Below, in pieces: positions 5,610 to 13,651 of a stretch of DNA of 20,548 nt (positions within the stretch are counted from its first letter, which is position 1; each line of letters begins with the position of its first letter). The notes under the pieces were generated by a model, which was not told the origin of the DNA, ran no database searches, and saw nothing but the letters and a program-made list of their open reading frames with translations. The stretch is from positions 1-20,548 of the IMG/VR virus record IMGVR_UViG_3300047174_000192; one strand, written 5' to 3'. This DNA comes from a virus. The position numbers and the translations under genes are program-made.

Positions 5610-5630
5610 TTAAAAAGCAACAAAAAACTT
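5610..5630 (-). repeat. 21-bp operon-boundary repeat, copy 1 (T-tract motif)
   Basis: These 21 bases are identical to 14734-14754. Read on the minus strand the core is GTTTTTTGTTGC followed by a TTTTTAA tract. It overlaps the stop codon of the gene at 5629-6573 and lies about 40 bases before the ATG at 5570. A TTGCTT hexamer could serve as -35 with CATTAT about 18 bases on, but the -10 is weak. Promoter or operator activity is inferred from position. Confidence 0.6.
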
Positions 5631-6573
5631 AATCGGCCTCCAAATCAAACCCGTGTTTTTTAAGGAGCGCGAGCGTGGCTTGCATCATGGCGACGGGGTC
5701 TTCCGCAGCTAAAGTCGGAAAATATCCGACGTAGAGATCGCCCTCATCGACGGCGCCGTGGCCTCCGAAGTTATCGAATCCCATGTTGAATGCCGCTTGG
5801 AACATAAATCTAGACTCGGCATCCTGGGCGCATGTAAAGAAGGCTAGAGCGTCAAGATCAAGCGGTTGATTAGCCGCTTTGATTTGGACTTCGATCATCA
5901 CGGTTGTCCGACGGCGAAAACCGGAGGAAATCCACACTTCGGCCCGGCGACCGGTGCGCTCAATAGCATCAATCGCCGCCATTGTTACCGCGCCTCGCGC
6001 TTGAGCTTGTTCGTGAGAATGGCCCATGGCCCCCGCATCCACATCAAGCATTACCTTGACGATGCGGTTGGAGGGCGAGAATTTGGCCTCGGATTCTTGC
6101 TTGTGGATCATGTTTTCGGGTTCACCCGAAAGAAACCGGCCCACATCCGGATAACCGCCATAGACCTCGTAAACTTGCTCTATCTTGGGTGCAAATTTAC
6201 GAAGCCGGTCGTCGATGCGACCCGATATTTCCGCACACTTAGCCGTCATCTCGGGCCATCCGAAACGAGCTTTCCTCATGGCATCATCCCATGTGGCGAA
6301 TATTTTCCCGCAGCTTTTGGCAGTAATGACGGTTCCGCGAGGGCTATCCGAATCGTTTTCTCGAAGCCTATCTTTTTCAATGTAGTTGAGAAATTCGGGA
6401 AGAGTGAATCGGTATACAATTCCGGAGTCGGTAACTTCTCCAACCTCATCCTTGATAGTCCACGCCTCGGGATAGACCGGTGGTACAATGCGCTTATCCC
6501 TTCCTGGAGGGGCATTGCTCGCCGATAAATCCAAGGCGGATTCCGCTTCCTTAATGATGTCGATGTCGTTCAT
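5629..6573 (-). CDS. partner of MoxR-like ATPase (DUF7192-like, possible VWA-like)
   Basis: 314 residues, soluble. Residues 138-155 (YGGYPDVGRFLSGEPENM) match a signature of phage and actinobacterial proteins encoded next to AAA ATPases, annotated DUF7192. The segment IVKVMLDVDAG (171-181) followed by alternating helices and strands (AAIDAIERTGRRAEVWIS, 199-216) looks like a Rossmann or VWA-like core, which would suit the known MoxR-VWA pairing, although no complete MIDAS (DxSxS) motif is visible. The start overlaps the ATPase stop as TAATG, so the two are made together. Likely a client-binding or assembly partner (inference). Confidence 0.7.
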   Translation of the reverse strand: MNDIDIIKEAESALDLSASNAPPGRDKRIVPPVYPEAWTIKDEVGEVTDSGIVYRFTLPEFLNYIEKDRLRENDSDSPRGTVITAKSCGKIFATWDDAMRKARFGWPEMTAKCAEISGRIDDRLRKFAPKIEQVYEVYGGYPDVGRFLSGEPENMIHKQESEAKFSPSNRIVKVMLDVDAGAMGHSHEQAQARGAVTMAAIDAIERTGRRAEVWISSGFRRRTTVMIEVQIKAANQPLDLDALAFFTCAQDAESRFMFQAAFNMGFDNFGGHGAVDEGDLYVGYFPTLAAEDPVAMMQATLALLKKHGFDLEAD

Positions 6574-7991
6574 TAGTTTGGCGCTCCCGTCATGTTCGAG
6601 TAATCCTTATTAAACCTTTTGGCGCGGCGTTGCGTATCCGTCTCCGGTTGGAGAAGCGGGCCTTTGGCCTTGGGTGGTTTGGCGTTTGAAATAGCAACCT
6701 CGGGGAGCGTGCTTTTGATTTTGGCAATGGCATCCTTGTCGAGGCCCTTCCAAAGGACGATCTCTTCGACTTTTTCCCTAGGCATGCCATTGGCGAGGAG
6801 CCGGGCGCCATCCTTGGAGGCGCGAGGACTCACCACATGGCGAACCTTGTGCGAGGCGACTTCTTTGCGCACGGCTTGAATGTAATTCACCCATGCGTCA
6901 TTTCCAGCGATAGCCCGTTCGAGCGCGTCATCGTACTCCCAATCGAGGAAGGCGAAGCGGTCGATGGTGGCGCCGTCCATTTGATTGCGACCCACGTAGA
7001 CCCGATCCGCGCCCATGCCAAAGGTGTTGGCCGCGGCGACGCAATAGAACTTTTCGTGCTTCTCCACCGTCCTATCGGGAAAATCCATCATGCCGTTGGC
7101 AATGGCCGCGTTGAAGGCCAAGACCGCTTGCGGCATGGAGCCGTCGATCTCATCAAAAAGGAACACGCCTCCGTGCTCGTAGGCCTCTCGGAATGGTGTC
7201 CGCACGACCTTGCCGTTGGCATCGGTAAAACCGGTGAGCTTGAACTCGGAGGTAATAGCTCCCGTGAAGTAGAACTTTACTCCGAGGCACTTGGCGACCT
7301 GTTGCGCCGCCGTGGTTTTTCCCGAACCGGCGGGGCCTACGAGATAGGCATTGAGCCCAGATCGAACGATCAAAAGAAGCTGGTCAAATTGCTTGTGTTG
7401 AATGCCGGTATTGACTTGGACGCCATCGACCAAAACCGAGGTTTTGAGGATGCGCTTAGCGGAGATTTGATCCACGAGCGCCTTCACTTTTTCGTCGATA
7501 ATGGTCTTGACCTTTTCCTCGTCGAGAGAAGGGGAGGTGGGATTGGGTGTGGCCACGGGCCTATCGGGATCGATAGGCGCGACATCGCCCACGATCTCCA
7601 CTACGCATTCACGGTTGCGACGGAGCCCGTCTTGGAGCGTGGCGTCGGGAAGGGTGAACTCAAGTTCCTCATTTTCCATGAGTTCCTTGATGGCCTCTTT
7701 GAGGGCCTCGCGGTCTTGATCGGCTTTCTTTTCTTCTCCCTCGGCGGAATCGCCCTCTCCTTCCCCCTTCTTTGGCGGGGTTTTTGAGGAGGCCAGAGAT
7801 TGCATGATCTTGCCGATCATGTCGATGGAATCGCCTTCGGTGGGCTCGCTAAAATCGGGCGCCACGGGAGTACCGTCGCCGTTCGCCGTGACTCCATGGC
7901 CGGGATTCTCGGGAAGAGACGGCTTGGCCCCTTCGAGTATCTTGCGAAGCATCAATGGAACCTCGGGCTTCGGTGGTAAAGTGTTTGTCAT
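6573..7991 (-). CDS. MoxR/CobS-like AAA ATPase
   Basis: 472 residues. An acidic, disordered N-terminus (1-190) precedes the AAA core: Walker A GPAGSGKT (219-226), ITSEFKLTGF (246-255), Walker B VFLFDEIDG (276-284), then sensor-type VAAANTFGMGADRVYVGR and MDGATIDRFA. The order fits the AAA_5/MoxR-CbbQ-CobS class, chaperone-like ATPases that remodel partner complexes. The ATG at 7991 is preferred over 8012 because a promoter-like pair ends 6 bases before it. No ribosome-binding site is seen for either. Placement ahead of the DUF7192-like gene and just downstream of the modification cassette is notable; the substrate is unknown. Confidence 0.88.
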   Translation of the reverse strand: MTNTLPPKPEVPLMLRKILEGAKPSLPENPGHGVTANGDGTPVAPDFSEPTEGDSIDMIGKIMQSLASSKTPPKKGEGEGDSAEGEEKKADQDREALKEAIKELMENEELEFTLPDATLQDGLRRNRECVVEIVGDVAPIDPDRPVATPNPTSPSLDEEKVKTIIDEKVKALVDQISAKRILKTSVLVDGVQVNTGIQHKQFDQLLLIVRSGLNAYLVGPAGSGKTTAAQQVAKCLGVKFYFTGAITSEFKLTGFTDANGKVVRTPFREAYEHGGVFLFDEIDGSMPQAVLAFNAAIANGMMDFPDRTVEKHEKFYCVAAANTFGMGADRVYVGRNQMDGATIDRFAFLDWEYDDALERAIAGNDAWVNYIQAVRKEVASHKVRHVVSPRASKDGARLLANGMPREKVEEIVLWKGLDKDAIAKIKSTLPEVAISNAKPPKAKGPLLQPETDTQRRAKRFNKDYSNMTGAPN

Positions 7992-7997
7992 GCCGTC

Positions 7998-8025
7998 AAA
8001 ATAACACAGCATTTACAAAGTACAA
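7998..8025 (-). promoter_or_regulatory. promoter for MoxR-like ATPase operon, near leaderless
   Basis: On the minus strand: -35 TTGTAC (8025-8020), 16-base spacer, -10 TATTTT (8003-7998), then 6 bases and ATG (7991). The upstream T-tract TTTTTTGTTG is shared with the plus-strand promoter at 17469, as is TTTGTA just inside the spacer. Transcription would begin at or next to the start codon. Confidence 0.6.
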
Positions 8026-8034
8026 CAAAAAACA

Positions 8035-8766
8035 TTAAAAAACTTTAGCGGTTCCTTTTAGCCTAAGCAAAACCTCGTTTTCCCTCGTGGGATGATCCGA
8101 AATCCATCGGCCCCATTTGGACCTAAGACGAATGATTGCCGAAAATTCCAACTCCGCGGTACGGTAATTTTGGCATCCGCCCTTGTTGGTGTAGTGGGCA
8201 AAATCAAGCGACAAGGAATCATCGCGGATCACGCCGCCATACTTGGCGAAATGTTGGCACGTGAAATCATAGTCCTCCTTGAGCCGCATGACCGGATCGT
8301 ACCGAAGCTCGGTGGGGAGAATGAGCGAAAAGCTTCCAATGACAAACGCCGCCGTTTTGATCGGTTTTTCGGGGTTGAAAAAGTAGGGGTTATTTGTCGG
8401 CGCCATTCCGGCCAATTTGAATGGCGATGAAGTGAGGTGGTCGAGGAGCGTGGTCACGGCGTCTTGGATGGTGATTTCCTCCTTTTTTTTCTTTCCGAAA
8501 ATGCGCTCGATCTTTTTCACATCGTCATCGACTTGTAGGCATGGCGCATTGAGCCGGAAAGCGGCCTCCAAGGCTTTATTCCGTCCCGCGACTAGTTCTA
8601 GAGCCGAAACCGTCTCCGACGCCCCCGCGAGGTTGTAGGCGTGTTTCTCGGCATTTGGGACAAACCATGTCGCGGGACCAATGAGGGCTTGGGTTTGGCC
8701 GACGTTTTGCGTCCGGCCCGAACTAATCACGGCCACATAGGCGCCCCCGAGATCGGGACGGATCAA
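8035..8766 (-). CDS. TET-associated glycosyltransferase (DNA base glycosylation)
   Basis: 243 residues, GT-A-like. Nucleotide-sugar N-terminus AYVAVISSGRTQNV (9-22), helix AGRNKALEAAFRLNAPCLQVDDDV (60-83) with the DDD metal motif at 80-82, then VIGSFSLILPTELRYD (142-157), the acidic KEDYDF (163-168) and HYTNKGG (191-197). These last two blocks are what I associate with the TAGT family, which adds sugars to hydroxymethylated bases made by TET/JBP enzymes. The start is TTG at 8766: AAGGAG lies 5 bases upstream and the TTGA overlaps the dioxygenase stop. It would act on phage DNA after the dioxygenase, protecting it from nucleases. The sugar donor cannot be told from the sequence. Confidence 0.82.
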   Translation of the reverse strand: MIRPDLGGAYVAVISSGRTQNVGQTQALIGPATWFVPNAEKHAYNLAGASETVSALELVAGRNKALEAAFRLNAPCLQVDDDVKKIERIFGKKKKEEITIQDAVTTLLDHLTSSPFKLAGMAPTNNPYFFNPEKPIKTAAFVIGSFSLILPTELRYDPVMRLKEDYDFTCQHFAKYGGVIRDDSLSLDFAHYTNKGGCQNYRTAELEFSAIIRLRSKWGRWISDHPTRENEVLLRLKGTAKVF

Positions 8767-9719
8767 AATAGCTCCTTGTCTTGCTTTTGGTAGGTCTCTT
8801 CCGTGGTGCGGATGGCGCGGAGGCGCTCCTCTTCCGCGGATTTGCATTGGGCCAATTTTTCTTGGTAGTAGCACACAAGGCTAATTCGGGTCCACGTGCC
8901 GGGCAGGCCTACAATCTCATCGTTCCCGTGGTACTCGTGCACGTCGCAAACAAGGAGATCGGTTGTTCGCATATCAACGGCCACGCGGAACTTAGGGAAG
9001 ACGGTGTAGCCGCGCCGATAGTTGCCACGGTTAAAGGCGGTCATGACGCCGAAGCCTTGCTTTAAATCACCGCTGTCCCGGTGGATGGCGGTGCGGAAAT
9101 TCTTGTTGGCCGTGATAGTAGTAAAGCTCGTTCCCGGAATGCGGAAGTCCTCGTGCGTGCGCTTCCAATACTCCATTTGGGCGGCATGGCGCTCGGGCAT
9201 GAGGCTCGAAAAAACCTCATCAATATACTCAAGGAGCGGGAGGCATTGGACGAACTTCGGAACCTCCGAGGCGGTAAAGGCGGTCATGCGGCAATAGGGA
9301 TTGCGGCTAGTCGCACCAAGGAAACCGAGCGTGCCGGAAAGCACTTTGTTGGCATCGGATTTCTTGGTCACGGTGCCATCTTTTTTTACAAACTTCACCC
9401 GCGCCGCTCCGGGCCTACCCGGAACCACTTTACGTCCTTTGACTTCACCATTTTCATCCGGCACAACAATTCCCGCCGCGAGCCCCCGATTCATTGAAGG
9501 AGTAGCCGCTTCTTCCCAAACGGGAAGGCTATCGATGCAAAGATTAAGCGGTAGTACGGCCTTGCGGAACTTGAGAAGCACGGTGCCATCCGGTTTGAGC
9601 ACATCGGCGTCCTCGGTAAGGACATGATCATACATGAGTCCATCGACTAGATGGCCCGCAAGCCGTTCCACGTCTTCATCCGGCAAGCAATCAGAGTTCG
9701 TTAGCGCGAGCGTCTTCAT
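8763..9719 (-). CDS. TET/JBP-family 2-oxoglutarate/Fe(II) dioxygenase
   Basis: 318 residues. The double-stranded beta-helix core lies in about 190-290: FRIPGTSFTTITANKNFRTAIHRDSGD (192-218) provides the Fe-binding H213-x-D215, CDVHEYHGN (258-266) the distal His (H264 or H261), and WTRISLVCYYQ (276-286) the 2-oxoglutarate-binding R278. This order and spacing are those of the TET/JBP superfamily, which hydroxylates 5-methylcytosine or thymine in DNA. The N-terminal segment (VLTEDADVLKPDGTVLLKFRKAVLP) is the typical phage-type entry. The ATG at 9719 overlaps the upstream gene by 29 bases; a weak GAAAA precedes it. No C5-cytosine methyltransferase is in the window, so whether thymine or 5mC is the substrate is open. 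Confidence 0.9.
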   Translation of the reverse strand: MKTLALTNSDCLPDEDVERLAGHLVDGLMYDHVLTEDADVLKPDGTVLLKFRKAVLPLNLCIDSLPVWEEAATPSMNRGLAAGIVVPDENGEVKGRKVVPGRPGAARVKFVKKDGTVTKKSDANKVLSGTLGFLGATSRNPYCRMTAFTASEVPKFVQCLPLLEYIDEVFSSLMPERHAAQMEYWKRTHEDFRIPGTSFTTITANKNFRTAIHRDSGDLKQGFGVMTAFNRGNYRRGYTVFPKFRVAVDMRTTDLLVCDVHEYHGNDEIVGLPGTWTRISLVCYYQEKLAQCKSAEEERLRAIRTTEETYQKQDKELF

Positions 9720-9969
9720 TTTCAAAAGTGAAGCGATAGGGAGGCTCGCTTCCAGTGATGGTAATGTTGCGGTAAATGAGCGGCGGTTTGTTGTAGTCGT
9801 CGATAATGAGGAGATTTCCATCGTGCAAAAACCACGGGATTTTATTCTCGTGGGCGTTCCTCCACGCAAACATCCAATCGGGCATGTGCTCGGGAGGAAT
9901 CACTACCATGTCGGGACGCCGAATGGATTCCGTTATCGGATTGGATTCCAAATTAAGAATTTCACTCAT
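9691..9969 (-). CDS. small unknown protein inside the modification cassette
   Basis: 92 residues, soluble, rich in Pro and aromatics: MSEILNLESNPITESIRRPDMVVIPPEHMPDWMFAWRNAHENK... with a beta-rich second half (NLLIIDDYNKPPLIYRNITI). It starts as ATGA on the ParB-like gene's stop and overlaps the dioxygenase start by 29 bases, so it is locked into this operon. No family recognised. Its composition of strands and turns might suit a small beta-barrel accessory protein. Confidence 0.7.
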   Translation of the reverse strand: MSEILNLESNPITESIRRPDMVVIPPEHMPDWMFAWRNAHENKIPWFLHDGNLLIIDDYNKPPLIYRNITITGSEPPYRFTFENEDARANEL

Positions 9970-10682
9970 GGCACGATGGCTTGTTTGGCCGCGTGGGTAT
10001 CAAGCGCAATTTCTAACGCCTTGGCCACCGTTTCGCTAATGTTGGCCGTGCCTAAGAGCGTCTCAAGCTTTTTGGCCTTCTCAATGATGCCAGGCCGAGT
10101 GGCCGTGGTGTAAAAAAGCTGCACCAAGGCTACTTGGCTCGGGAGGTTCATCATCTCTTTAGAGGTGAGCGGAGAAGTGAGCGATTGAGACTCTTGCGCT
10201 TGGACGTTAAATCCACTCTTGTCGCCGCGGAAAAGGTTCTCCATGAAATCGGTTTCAAGGCCTATCTCCTTTTGTGTGATCGTTTCATCCTCGGAGACGA
10301 GCTTGAGTACCGTGCGGAGCTTCTCCTCATCCCAATTCCCGCCGTGCGCGTTGGCGGCAATGTTGGCTGCGTAGGCGAAGTCCTTCTCCCAATCGACTTC
10401 CCGATAGCTGTGCTTACTTCCGTCTTTGAGGGTGATGTAGCCTAGACCAACGGTGCCTTGGTGGTCTTTGGGGAAGTATTTGGCTTCGATGGGACAATCC
10501 GGACCAAAGAGCGATGTGCGTTGGTGCCCGCCTACTAAAGTGCGTGTGCGCCGGTTGAAAACGATGCCCGAAAGATCGCCGAACTTCTCAAGACTCGCGA
10601 GGAGGTTTTCCTTTTGCTCCTTGGTTATTTTTCTCGGGTTAAGCTCGTCGGGAGCGAGTGCCGCTGTGGATTCAATGGCCAT
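9966..10682 (-). CDS. ParB-like nuclease-domain protein
   Basis: 238 residues. The ParB/Srx N-terminal domain is clear: LNPRKITKEQKENLLASLEKFG (14-35), then VFNRRTRTLVGGHQRTSLFG (41-60) with the GGHQR box (51-55). Residues 95-150 carry an ANIAANAHGGNWDEEKLRTVL helical part typical of phage ParB-like proteins. No ParA partner is nearby, so plasmid-type partitioning is unlikely. Phage TET/JBP loci are known to include ParB-like proteins, suggesting a targeting or modification role (inference). The ATG at 10682 is 7 bases after the upstream stop, with GGAG 13 bases before it. A start at 10742 is possible but would overlap the upstream gene by about 50 bases. Confidence 0.85.
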   Translation of the reverse strand: MAIESTAALAPDELNPRKITKEQKENLLASLEKFGDLSGIVFNRRTRTLVGGHQRTSLFGPDCPIEAKYFPKDHQGTVGLGYITLKDGSKHSYREVDWEKDFAYAANIAANAHGGNWDEEKLRTVLKLVSEDETITQKEIGLETDFMENLFRGDKSGFNVQAQESQSLTSPLTSKEMMNLPSQVALVQLFYTTATRPGIIEKAKKLETLLGTANISETVAKALEIALDTHAAKQAIVP

Positions 10683-10689
10683 AAATAAA

Positions 10690-11160
10690 TTAGCACTCCA
10701 ATTCGGGGGTTTGAGCAACGATTTCCTGTCGGATTTTCTCATCCGGAGCGACCCATCCGGGCGGCTTCATTTGCTTGCCCTCTCGAATCGTAGAACCGGA
10801 GCCAAACTTGGCTAGATTCGCCTCATGGACGAGTTCCCAGATCGGCTTGAGATCGATGCCACAAGCCACGGCGGTCCCTACCGAGACGTAAACTTGATCG
10901 CAAATTCCGTCGGCGATCTCGGCCAAATTCGGCTCTCCTTGTGGGAGAAGTTTGATCGTATCGCACACATCGTAGGTTCGTCCGTCTCCATTCTCCCAAC
11001 ATGGCTGTATACCTAGAGCCTCTAGTTGCTCAAAGGCTTCTTCAAGTATGAGTTTTGCCCGAAGAAGTCGGACCTCTTCGTTTGGGATAATTGGGTATTC
11101 GGGAGTGGCTTGCTTGGCCAATTCCATGAAATGCCGAACGTCGGATTGGATGTGATTCAT
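10690..11160 (-). CDS. MazG/PRA-PH-like NTP pyrophosphohydrolase
   Basis: 156 residues from the ATG at 11160; a longer reading to 11223 is not preferred. The all-alpha NTP pyrophosphatase pattern is visible: EVRLLRAKLILEEAFEQLEALG (residues about 29-50, with the E-E-x-x-E metal-binding stretch) and AEIADGICDQVYVSVGTAVACGID (about 80-103, with the second acidic pair E and D), ending WELVHEANLAKFG. Enzymes of this fold hydrolyse dNTPs or related nucleotides to monophosphates and pyrophosphate. As the first gene of the modification operon it may adjust nucleotide pools (inference). It sits behind a T-tract motif and has no clear ribosome-binding site. Confidence 0.82.
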   Translation of the reverse strand: MNHIQSDVRHFMELAKQATPEYPIIPNEEVRLLRAKLILEEAFEQLEALGIQPCWENGDGRTYDVCDTIKLLPQGEPNLAEIADGICDQVYVSVGTAVACGIDLKPIWELVHEANLAKFGSGSTIREGKQMKPPGWVAPDEKIRQEIVAQTPELEC

Positions 11161-11255: not shown

Positions 11256-11810
11256 ATGCCACTCCTCGAACTTGATACGCGGGAGCGCCCGATTCTCCAA
11301 GAGCCAATCTATCGGCGCCAAGAAGACGAGACCGACCGAGAGTACGAATTTTTTCTCATTTACCGCGACATTTCGTGGGACGAGAGAACCCTCCGCAAAG
11401 CCACCGCCATCGCCACGGGAGTTCCCGAGGGAGAAGTGACGGTTCCTCACTCTCAAATCGCCGCCATGTCGGCCAAGTGGCAATGGCCCATGCGAGCCGA
11501 TGCCTATGATCTTTTCATCCAAGAGAACCGGAGCGAGCGCCAAGAAAAAATCGTGCTTCACATGAAAAGCGAGATCGAGCACACCTGTATGCGGTTGGTG
11601 TCGAAGATTGCCAAAATCACTAACATCGCCAATGCGGATGAGTTATTGCTTCCCGAAATGAAGCGCGACATGGCGGTGGTACAAGCCATGGTTCCGGAGG
11701 GCGGCGCCGGGAAGTTCATGCTTGAAACCTACAAGACAATCATCGGCCAAAAGCTACAGCTTGGGACAACCAAAAAGCTTCCACAACTTGAGTGGATTGC
11801 CGAAGCGTGA
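11256..11810 (+). CDS. probable small terminase or DNA-packaging accessory
   Basis: 184 residues. It starts MPLLELDTRERPILQEPIYRR and ends in a GTGA overlap with the large terminase, so the pair is co-translated. The middle contains an HTH-like part, WDERTLRKATAIATGVPEGEVTVPHSQIAAMSAKWQW (residues about 41-77), followed by PMRADAYDLFIQENRSERQEK, a pattern common in TerS-like phage proteins (W.W..RA.AYD). The second half is helical and may oligomerise. The TerS assignment rests on position and this pattern; no ribosome-binding site precedes the ATG. Confidence 0.62.
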   Translation: MPLLELDTRERPILQEPIYRRQEDETDREYEFFLIYRDISWDERTLRKATAIATGVPEGEVTVPHSQIAAMSAKWQWPMRADAYDLFIQENRSERQEKIVLHMKSEIEHTCMRLVSKIAKITNIANADELLLPEMKRDMAVVQAMVPEGGAGKFMLETYKTIIGQKLQLGTTKKLPQLEWIAEA

Positions 11811-13651
11811 AGCCCTACATCGAGGAGGCGCACCGCTTGGCGGGCCTCGAAAAGTTTGACGATTGCGCCCAAATTCTCATCGACAACCTCATCCGGCAAA
11901 AGCCGAGAGTTCCACCCGGCGAAGGCCTCCAATACTTGACTCAGCTTATTCCCGGAATGATCTCCCGAGGGATGCGCTTGGAGGTGGCGCATATCCTTTG
12001 GGGACACACCCAATTCAATGCCGAGCCGGAAAGTGTGAGGCTCATTTGGGATGAGGTCAAGAAAACGGCCACCATGCTCGTCCCCGGCGCGGGGGCCTTA
12101 GGCAAGAGCTACTCGCTCGCCGTCTACTTCCTTTTGGATTGGATCGAGGACCCGCTTTATACCGCGATCAAAGTGGTGGCGCCGACCGCCGAGCACGCCA
12201 AGCGCAATGTGTTTGCCCACATCAAAAATCTTCATCGCAACTCCACCATTCCGCTCCCCGGCCAAGTGAGAGAAGGCTCGATTCAGGCATCTAGCGATGA
12301 CAAGCAAGGCATCCACTTAGTCTCCATTCCTATTGGCGAGGATGGCGCCGGACGCCTCCAAGGCATGCACCCAACGCCAAGGAAACGCGCTCACCCCATT
12401 TACGGATCGCTCTCCCGCATCCGCGTGATCCTTGACGACGCCCAGGAGATTCCCGGCGGTATTTGGGACGACATCGACAACATGCTCATCACCTTGGATG
12501 GGATCGAGCACGTGAAGATCACCGCCGCCGCCAACCCACGCGACGTTGATTCCAAATTTGGGCGCCGTTGCGAGCCGGAGGATGGATGGTCTACGCTCGA
12601 CATTGAGACCTCTATCACATGGAAATCGAAGCTTGGGTGGGCCGTGGTGCGGCTCGATGGGGCGCGGTGCGAGAACGTGGTGCAAAAACGAATGGTTTAT
12701 GCGGGGCTCCTCTCCTACGAGGGTTACCGTCGCTACCTCCTTCAAGGCGATACGTCTCCGGAATATTACACCATGGCCCGTGGCTTCTTTCCAGTAAAGG
12801 GCCTTACCATCAACGTCATTCCAAGAGAGTTCATGGAGAAGGCCACCGCCCGTCTCAACTTTACGGGCCGAGTCACTTATTGCGCGGCGGTGGATTTGGC
12901 TTTCGAGGGAGACGATACGGCCCCAATGACGGTGGGCCGGTTCGGCTTGGCCACCGGCTATTCATTCCTCACCCCCGAAGGGCCTAAAACCGTGAACTTC
13001 GAGCGGGCCAAGTATGCCCTCCAAGCCGAAAGCCAATTCGATCTCATCAAGAATGACCCATCCAAGCAAATGATGCAAACCGTGTGGCTCGCCCATCAAA
13101 TCCGCACACATTGCCTCCGACTCGGCATCCCTGGAAGATGGGTTATTGTAGACCGAACGGGCAATGGTACCGGTGTCCACGACATCCTCAAATCCCCGTC
13201 GCCCACCGGCCTAGGAGAAGACGTGGTTGGAGTCCATTATGGTGCCGCGGCCACGGACAAAAAACTTTTCGCCGAGAGCACCGAACTTGCAAGCGATCTC
13301 TACGATGGCCTAGTCACCGAACTCTTTTTCGCCACCCGTAATTTTTTGGAATTTGACTATCTCAAAATCTCCCCAAGCCTAGACATTGCAGCCCTCACCG
13401 AGGAGCTATGTACGCGTCGATTCAAGCCGGGAACACGATCCGGAAAGGTTCGGGTGGAAGGTAAAAAAGAGTACAAGGCCCGAGGAAATAAAAGCCCGGA
13501 CAAAGCCGATTCCATTACCCTCCTCGTCCATCTCGTGCGCCTAAGAGAAGGCTTTGAAGCCATGCTTTTAAGCACCACCGAATCCGTGCGCGACCAAGAG
13601 ATCGAACCCGGTATTGTGGACCGCCTTCAATATATGGATTGGGGAAATTAA
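11807..13651 (+). CDS. terL: large terminase subunit
   Basis: 614 residues from the GTG at 11807, the GTGA overlap with the preceding stop; a GTG at 11792 is also in frame. ATPase domain: Walker A-like VPGAGALGKSY (92-102), VVAPTAEHAKRN (123-134), Walker B VILDDAQEIPGG (207-218, a DDAQ variant of the usual DEAH/DEC), and coupling motif ITAAANP (238-244). Nuclease domain, RNase H-like: D363 in AAVDLAF, D449 in WVIVDRTGNG, and the D565/D568 pair in KSPDKADSI. It cuts and pumps genome concatemers into the capsid through a portal. It is separated from all other plus-strand genes and followed directly by a convergent gene. Confidence 0.92.
   Translation: MKPYIEEAHRLAGLEKFDDCAQILIDNLIRQKPRVPPGEGLQYLTQLIPGMISRGMRLEVAHILWGHTQFNAEPESVRLIWDEVKKTATMLVPGAGALGKSYSLAVYFLLDWIEDPLYTAIKVVAPTAEHAKRNVFAHIKNLHRNSTIPLPGQVREGSIQASSDDKQGIHLVSIPIGEDGAGRLQGMHPTPRKRAHPIYGSLSRIRVILDDAQEIPGGIWDDIDNMLITLDGIEHVKITAAANPRDVDSKFGRRCEPEDGWSTLDIETSITWKSKLGWAVVRLDGARCENVVQKRMVYAGLLSYEGYRRYLLQGDTSPEYYTMARGFFPVKGLTINVIPREFMEKATARLNFTGRVTYCAAVDLAFEGDDTAPMTVGRFGLATGYSFLTPEGPKTVNFERAKYALQAESQFDLIKNDPSKQMMQTVWLAHQIRTHCLRLGIPGRWVIVDRTGNGTGVHDILKSPSPTGLGEDVVGVHYGAAATDKKLFAESTELASDLYDGLVTELFFATRNFLEFDYLKISPSLDIAALTEELCTRRFKPGTRSGKVRVEGKKEYKARGNKSPDKADSITLLVHLVRLREGFEAMLLSTTESVRDQEIEPGIVDRLQYMDWGN

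Follow-up and report, generated by a model that had tools for sequence, protein, structure and literature searches.

Which base is modified by the gene cassette on the minus strand of IMG/VR virus record IMGVR_UViG_3300047174_000192, and in what way? The window analyzed here is that entire record, 20,548 bases of a phage genome of which it is a fragment. It carries replication and terminase genes, and no head or tail genes were recognized among its scanned genes; a host-genome scan, in which six contigs from metagenome assemblies were hit, did not point clearly to a host. An initial annotation had described a complete-looking DNA hypermodification cassette at positions 8035-11160, with a PRA-PH/MazG-like pyrophosphohydrolase, a ParB-like protein, a 92-residue protein, a TET/JBP dioxygenase and a glycosyltransferase (GT) in this order on one strand. 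The list of open reading frames (ORFs) contains all five, in the order and orientation described. Profile matches, predicted folds, and gene order all lend good support to a TET/JBP and GT hypermodification cassette, but "complete" overstated the case, as the PRA-PH and 92-residue genes lie outside the conserved cassette. We consider it probable (roughly 0.72) that thymine in DNA is converted to 5-hydroxymethyluracil (5hmU) by the TET/JBP enzyme and then capped with a sugar by the GT, a member of the TET-associated glycosyltransferase (TAGT) family, which would make the system a phage counterpart of base J.

The dioxygenase matched the TET/JBP profile PF12851 well above its cut-off (E 2.8e-23; 82.4 bits against 34.9). 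Tet_JBP was the only domain returned by the Pfam scan, and no search aimed at a J-binding domain was made. The H-x-D...H...R residues that had been called intact correspond to H213, D215, H264, and R278; across all aligned phage TETs, these residues vary little or not at all. Structure prediction had been set beforehand as a possible refutation of the assignment. The AlphaFold2 (AF2) model of the TET, based on an alignment of 56 sequences, had a mean predicted local distance difference test (pLDDT) score of 92.2 and keeps the TET double-stranded beta-helix fold. The first 26 PDB matches of this model in Foldseek were all TET or CMD1 structures (NgTET1, CcTet, TET2, CMD1), and the best of them was NgTET1 with DNA containing 5-methylcytosine (5mC) (E 3e-13).

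Identification of the GT as a TAGT depended on intermediate sequences. The window protein itself scored 18 bits against PF20691, below the curated cut-off of 27.5, but it is homologous to members above the cut-off. Its homologue in locus L015 (E 2e-54, about 40% identity) scored 24 bits, other homologues scored 37-105 bits, and the relatives in L077 and L044 exceeded the cut-off. The window GT is most likely a divergent TAGT-family member, bridged by intermediate homologues that cluster with above-cut-off members. Its AF2 model (pLDDT 84.4) has a GT-A fold and matched the GT-A glycosyltransferases B4GALNT1, COLGALT1, KfiA, and K4 chondroitin polymerase, together with related nucleotidyltransferases. 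The DDD metal motif in the initial annotation is real, and its second and third residues do not vary among relatives. The most probable start codon of the GT is TTG 8766, which overlaps the stop codon of the TET gene, suggesting translational coupling of the two. In another locus (L026:941-2647), TET and TAGT are fused in one 569-aa protein, with both domains above cut-off.

To place the TET among its relatives, we searched viral contigs. The window TET alone retrieved zero relatives in a single-protein scan and an eight-sequence TET alignment was too diverse for searching; a five-sequence alignment (A2) was used instead and yielded at least 555 stretches, from which 80 loci were read. In 73 of about 86 loci, a parB gene precedes TET by one or two genes, and in nearly all of these it is the immediate upstream neighbor. 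The ParB-TET pairing was also found in actinophages, with a small gene in between in phage Klevey. Thus, the initial annotation was right to list a ParB-like protein, but the partnership with TET is much stronger than it implied. On the 3′ side of TET we found one of three gene sets: a class II amidotransferase (GATase), a GNAT or unnamed protein, an amino acid:DNA transferase (ADDT, PF18724), and a P-loop kinase; an FkbM methyltransferase; or a TAGT. ADDT was detected with E 4e-23 in sister loci after ParB-TET, and none was present in the window record, a fragment. Over 86 loci, ADDT was counted in 34, TAGT in 23, and FkbM in 14. The modules are almost mutually exclusive, as ADDT and TAGT share a single locus (Fisher 3e-5, a value that ignores shared ancestry), and TAGT and FkbM likewise share one. 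The conserved core is ParB-TET, to which a swappable tailoring module is attached.

The swap can be seen between related phages. L015 and L016/L018 are 89% identical in TET, 83% in ParB, and 87% in the large terminase subunit (TerL). At the same site, L015 carries a TAGT homologous to the window GT, and L016 and L018 carry a GATase-C10-ADDT-kinase set. ADDT enzymes act on 5hmU in DNA, as established for phages M6 and ViI (the 5-hydroxymethyldeoxyuridine (5hmdU) route is summarized in PMC6449724), so the near-identical TET should feed 5hmU to both modules. Exchange of the modules at one site points to a putative common 5hmU intermediate.

We then compared the distribution of C5-cytosine methyltransferases (C5-MTases, PF00145). 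The initial annotation had noted that none is present and had left two possibilities, thymine as the direct substrate or a methyltransferase elsewhere. PF00145 is indeed absent from the window record, which is weak evidence alone as the record is a fragment. It was also absent in 47 of 50 records with the window TET type (contigs of 9 to 137 kb), in all six complete phages with this type, and in all eight complete phages with actinophage or MED4 TET types. By contrast, in a distinct TET clade that includes Methylophilales phage Melnitz, PF00145 was detected in 36/36 records, against 3/50 for the window TET type (Fisher 4e-21, uncorrected for kinship). The PF00145 search is therefore sensitive, and as the Melnitz-clade contigs are mostly shorter, the contrast is not due to contig size. 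On the TET tree, the C5-MTase label needs only four changes. PF00303, which covers thymidylate synthase and the dUMP/dCMP hydroxymethylases, was absent in 24/25 and 28/28 records; thus, no other in-phage source of 5hmU or 5-hydroxymethylcytosine (5hmC) was seen. Between the two possibilities, the comparison favors thymine, both by the lack of C5-MTase in relatives and by the coupling to ADDT. One apparent methyltransferase was discarded as a C5-MTase: gp28 of phage P12024L, annotated as "DNA methyltransferase" beside a TET-TAGT pair, is of the N6/N4 type.

The GT provided an independent test. With the window GT and two of its homologues as seeds, 65 relatives were retrieved, 52 of which have a TET within 2 kb; two more records carry a TET elsewhere. 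PF00145 was found in 0 of 50 records reached in this way. The TETs in these records are of two sequence types: about 29 resemble those of the window clade, and about 19 belong to a different type. These results indicate that the window-GT family pairs with two TET types, neither of which usually brings a C5-MTase.

In the pathway that we propose, thymine already in DNA would be hydroxylated on its methyl group by the TET/JBP enzyme, creating 5hmU, and the TAGT-family GT would move a sugar from a nucleotide-sugar donor onto the new hydroxyl, yielding a base-J-like glycosylated thymine. The ParB-like partner probably binds, tracks, or positions the machinery on DNA. By analogy with other hypermodified phages, the glycosylated thymine may shield phage DNA from host nucleases. 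For the wider group, it seems reasonably likely that a large phage family uses ParB-TET-TAGT to make base-J-type glycosylated 5hmU from thymine in finished DNA, that thymine rather than 5mC is the substrate of most clade members, and that ParB-TET serves as a core into which modules for tailoring with sugars, amino acids, or (with FkbM) methyl groups can be plugged.

It is unlikely that the TET instead oxidizes 5mC supplied by a C5-MTase elsewhere in the phage or host, with the GT glycosylating the resulting 5hmC. The known biochemistry of phage TETs is of this kind (Burke et al. 2021, as cited in PMC11404850), the window is incomplete, so that a methyltransferase may lie elsewhere in its own genome, and C5-MTase and TET are paired in the Melnitz clade and in L057. 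This route has to contend with the lack of C5-MTase in 47/50, 14/14, and 50/50 relatives, including contigs of up to 137 kb, with the coupling of the window TET clade to ADDT, and with the sparseness of host 5mC, which would yield little modified DNA. Several observations nevertheless weigh against direct oxidation of thymine. Three records of the TET clade (L057, L052, and L076) carry PF00145; in L057, a small C5-MTase-like gene is located two genes downstream of a TET-TAGT pair whose GT is related to that of the window. The P-loop kinase is not diagnostic of thymine, as phage Melnitz, whose TET is linked to a C5-MTase, has one too; this leaves only ADDT in support of thymine. In addition, relative to its clade the window TET carries the substitutions D135G, R136A, G236R, and R286Q, in columns conserved in 94-100% of members. 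Position 286, Arg in 55/55 clade members, aligns with TET2 His1904, which we take from published TET2 structures to contact the base; the base specificity of the window TET may have shifted through this substitution. A single-residue rule for thymine versus cytosine was considered and rejected: the window clade is characterized by N266 and R286, yet V266 and, mostly, L286 are found in actinophage TETs that lack a C5-MTase.

The same deviations could mean that the cassette acts on RNA or a free nucleotide, or has become non-functional here through divergence, which we regard as very improbable, as the catalytic residues are all kept, the ORFs are intact, and the confident model is closest to DNA-acting TETs. 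Only slightly less improbable is a pathway in which 5hmU is indeed produced by the TET but the GT attaches a second sugar or works on another target, for example glycans on the surface of phage or host; the DNA would then bear something other than simple glycosyl-5hmU. The acceptor of a TAGT can be a sugar already in place rather than a base: the T2/T6 enzyme (beta-glucosyl-HMC-alpha-glucosyltransferase) transfers a second glucose onto glucosyl-5hmC (PMC13216743). The PHROG family matched by the window GT, phrog_842, is named after these homologues, and GT-A folds are promiscuous. A direct role on the TET product is favored by the translational coupling, by the fused homologue in L026, and by the linkage to TET in 52/65 relatives. 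Moreover, no other DNA GT was found in the window; PF11440 gave no match, in a search that ran without a positive control. Transfer of a sugar to 5hmU thus remains our preferred function for the GT. The features discussed are listed below.

Table. Features of the cassette and its flanking genes in the window
Feature	Position	Strand	Basis
TAGT-family GT-A glycosyltransferase, 243 aa	8035..8766	-	PF20691 E 0.003; phrog_842 E 3e-4; homologues above cut-off; GT-A model
DDD metal/nucleotide-sugar motif, D80-D82	8521..8529	-	D81-D82 invariant in relatives
TET/JBP-family Fe(II)/2-oxoglutarate dioxygenase, 318 aa	8763..9719	-	PF12851; ATG at 9719, open frame reaches 9869
Q286	8862..8864	-	Aligns to TET2 H1904; Arg in 55/55 clade members
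2-Oxoglutarate-binding Arg, R278	8886..8888	-	Invariant in window clade, conserved in other phage TET clades
Third Fe(II) ligand, H264	8928..8930	-	Invariant in window clade, conserved in other phage TET clades
HxD Fe(II) ligands, H213-R-D215	9075..9083	-	Identical in all 56 aligned sequences; kept throughout the phage TET clades
92-aa orphan, encoded between the parB and TET genes	9691..9969	-	Unproven cassette member
ParB-like protein, conserved TET partner	9966..10742	-	phrog_620 E 1.4e-17
PRA-PH/MazG-like nucleotide pyrophosphohydrolase	10690..11160	-	PF01503 E 9e-11

Phage TET/JBP proteins were reportedly predicted by Iyer et al. in 2013 to make hydroxymethyl pyrimidines for later tailoring. 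In kinetoplastid base J synthesis, the thymidine hydroxylases JBP1/JBP2 act with the base J glucosyltransferase. At the gene level, the window cassette resembles this pathway in combining a TET/JBP oxygenase with a GT in the absence of a cytosine methyltransferase, and in the proposed route from thymine through 5hmU to glycosyl-5hmU; it differs in its ParB partner and in that the general Pfam scan of the window protein, with no search directed at the J-binding domain, showed neither a J-DNA-binding nor an SNF2 domain. In the C5-MTase-TET-GT systems for cytosine hypermodification (Burke et al. 2021, cited in PMC11404850; Pyle 2024), a phage TET is likewise followed by DNA glycosyltransferases, whereas nearly all relatives of the window TET have ParB instead of a C5-MTase, and the C5-MTase-linked TETs form a separate clade. 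Thymidine hypermodification in phages M6 and ViI, with 5hmU DNA kinase and ADDT/aGPT-PPlase2, is paralleled by the ADDT and kinase of the sister loci and by the proposed 5hmU intermediate. Unlike in these phages, the proposed source of 5hmU here is a post-replicative TET rather than a dUMP hydroxymethylase, and the window GT replaces the kinase and ADDT. A five-gene cluster in Rhodococcus equi phage Tonitrus shares a parB-like gene and a gene for a tet-like J-binding protein; it was annotated in 2025 as possible thymidine hypermodification, and on that annotation it has aGPT-PPlase2 and kinase genes but no named GT (PMC11955845). The T2/T6 TAGT (PF20691; PMC13216743) belongs to the same GT-A family as the window GT, bridged by intermediate homologues, but no T4-type GT or hydroxymethylase lies beside the window gene, and the acceptor here is probably 5hmU.

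According to a paper from 2019, glucosylated 5hmdU was unreported in phages (PMC6449724); phage SP-15 contains a different glucosylated base, dihydroxypentyluracil (PMC5977210). The phage TETs studied so far act on cytosine, from which a thymine substrate would differ. If the proposed pathway is correct, bacterial viruses would have counterparts of the base J pathway, the unexplained ParB-like partner would gain a role, and DNA thymine dioxygenases and 5hmU glycosyltransferases would become available as tools. Because the TET clades split cleanly by C5-MTase (36/36 versus 3/50), their specificity for thymine or cytosine is testable on the cultured phages HTVC112P, P12024L, and Klevey.

The Pfam scan gave no match for the window ParB-like protein, which was identified by phrog_620; PF02195 matched the equivalent genes in relatives, down to 5e-13. 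The protein also matched phrog_498 and, over residues 21-76, the PADLOC model MTase_II; neither PADLOC nor NCBIfam yielded a decisive assignment. Fusions of this domain with DNA methyltransferases occur as well, consistent with a function in modifying DNA. For the 92-residue ORF, neither a family match nor a homologue was found in Pfam, PHROG, or the relative loci, in line with its initial description as an unknown protein. The PRA-PH identity was borne out as well, but homologues were present in only three relative loci, none adjacent to TET; this protein, which might act on nucleotide pools, is co-oriented with the cassette but probably not a member of it. For lack of co-occurrence with the core among relatives, both genes count as unproven cassette members.

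Further genes were observed around the core in other phages. An FkbM-type methyltransferase directly after ParB-TET in L002 and 13 other loci could O-methylate 5hmU. In a group of close relatives, L015 (2376-2939) together with L013 and L016-L020, TET is immediately followed by a conserved protein of 187 aa that is not matched by Pfam. In phage Serendipitous (L093:1773-3651), TET, TAGT, a PIG-L deacetylase, and a P-loop kinase are encoded consecutively, suggesting a deacetylated amino-sugar. Similarly, a radical SAM/SPASM protein and a cupin sugar-isomerase-like protein after ParB-TET-GT in L186 (7718-9092) suggest further sugar tailoring, and a UDP-galactopyranose mutase two genes past TET in phage C48C1 (L007:11847-12854) hints at galactofuranose. 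Some database labels appear to be misnomers for TET/JBP dioxygenases: the phrog_6059 label "queuine tRNA-ribosyltransferase" on actinophage gp2 proteins (L093, L170, L171), and "putative SNF2 DNA repair protein" in Cr30, DLP_6, S-CBWM1, and HTVC112P.

Within the window, positions 11792-13651 encode a probable terminase large subunit, adjoining a match to the terminase small subunit; it has no Pfam, PHROG, or NCBIfam match and is probably very divergent. Downstream of the GT on the same strand are a CobS-like AAA ATPase gene (6573-8012; phrog_249, E 2e-61) and then a gene for a DUF7192 protein (5629-6573; E 2e-23). This pair starts a couple dozen bases past the GT stop codon and is possibly carried on the same transcript as the cassette.

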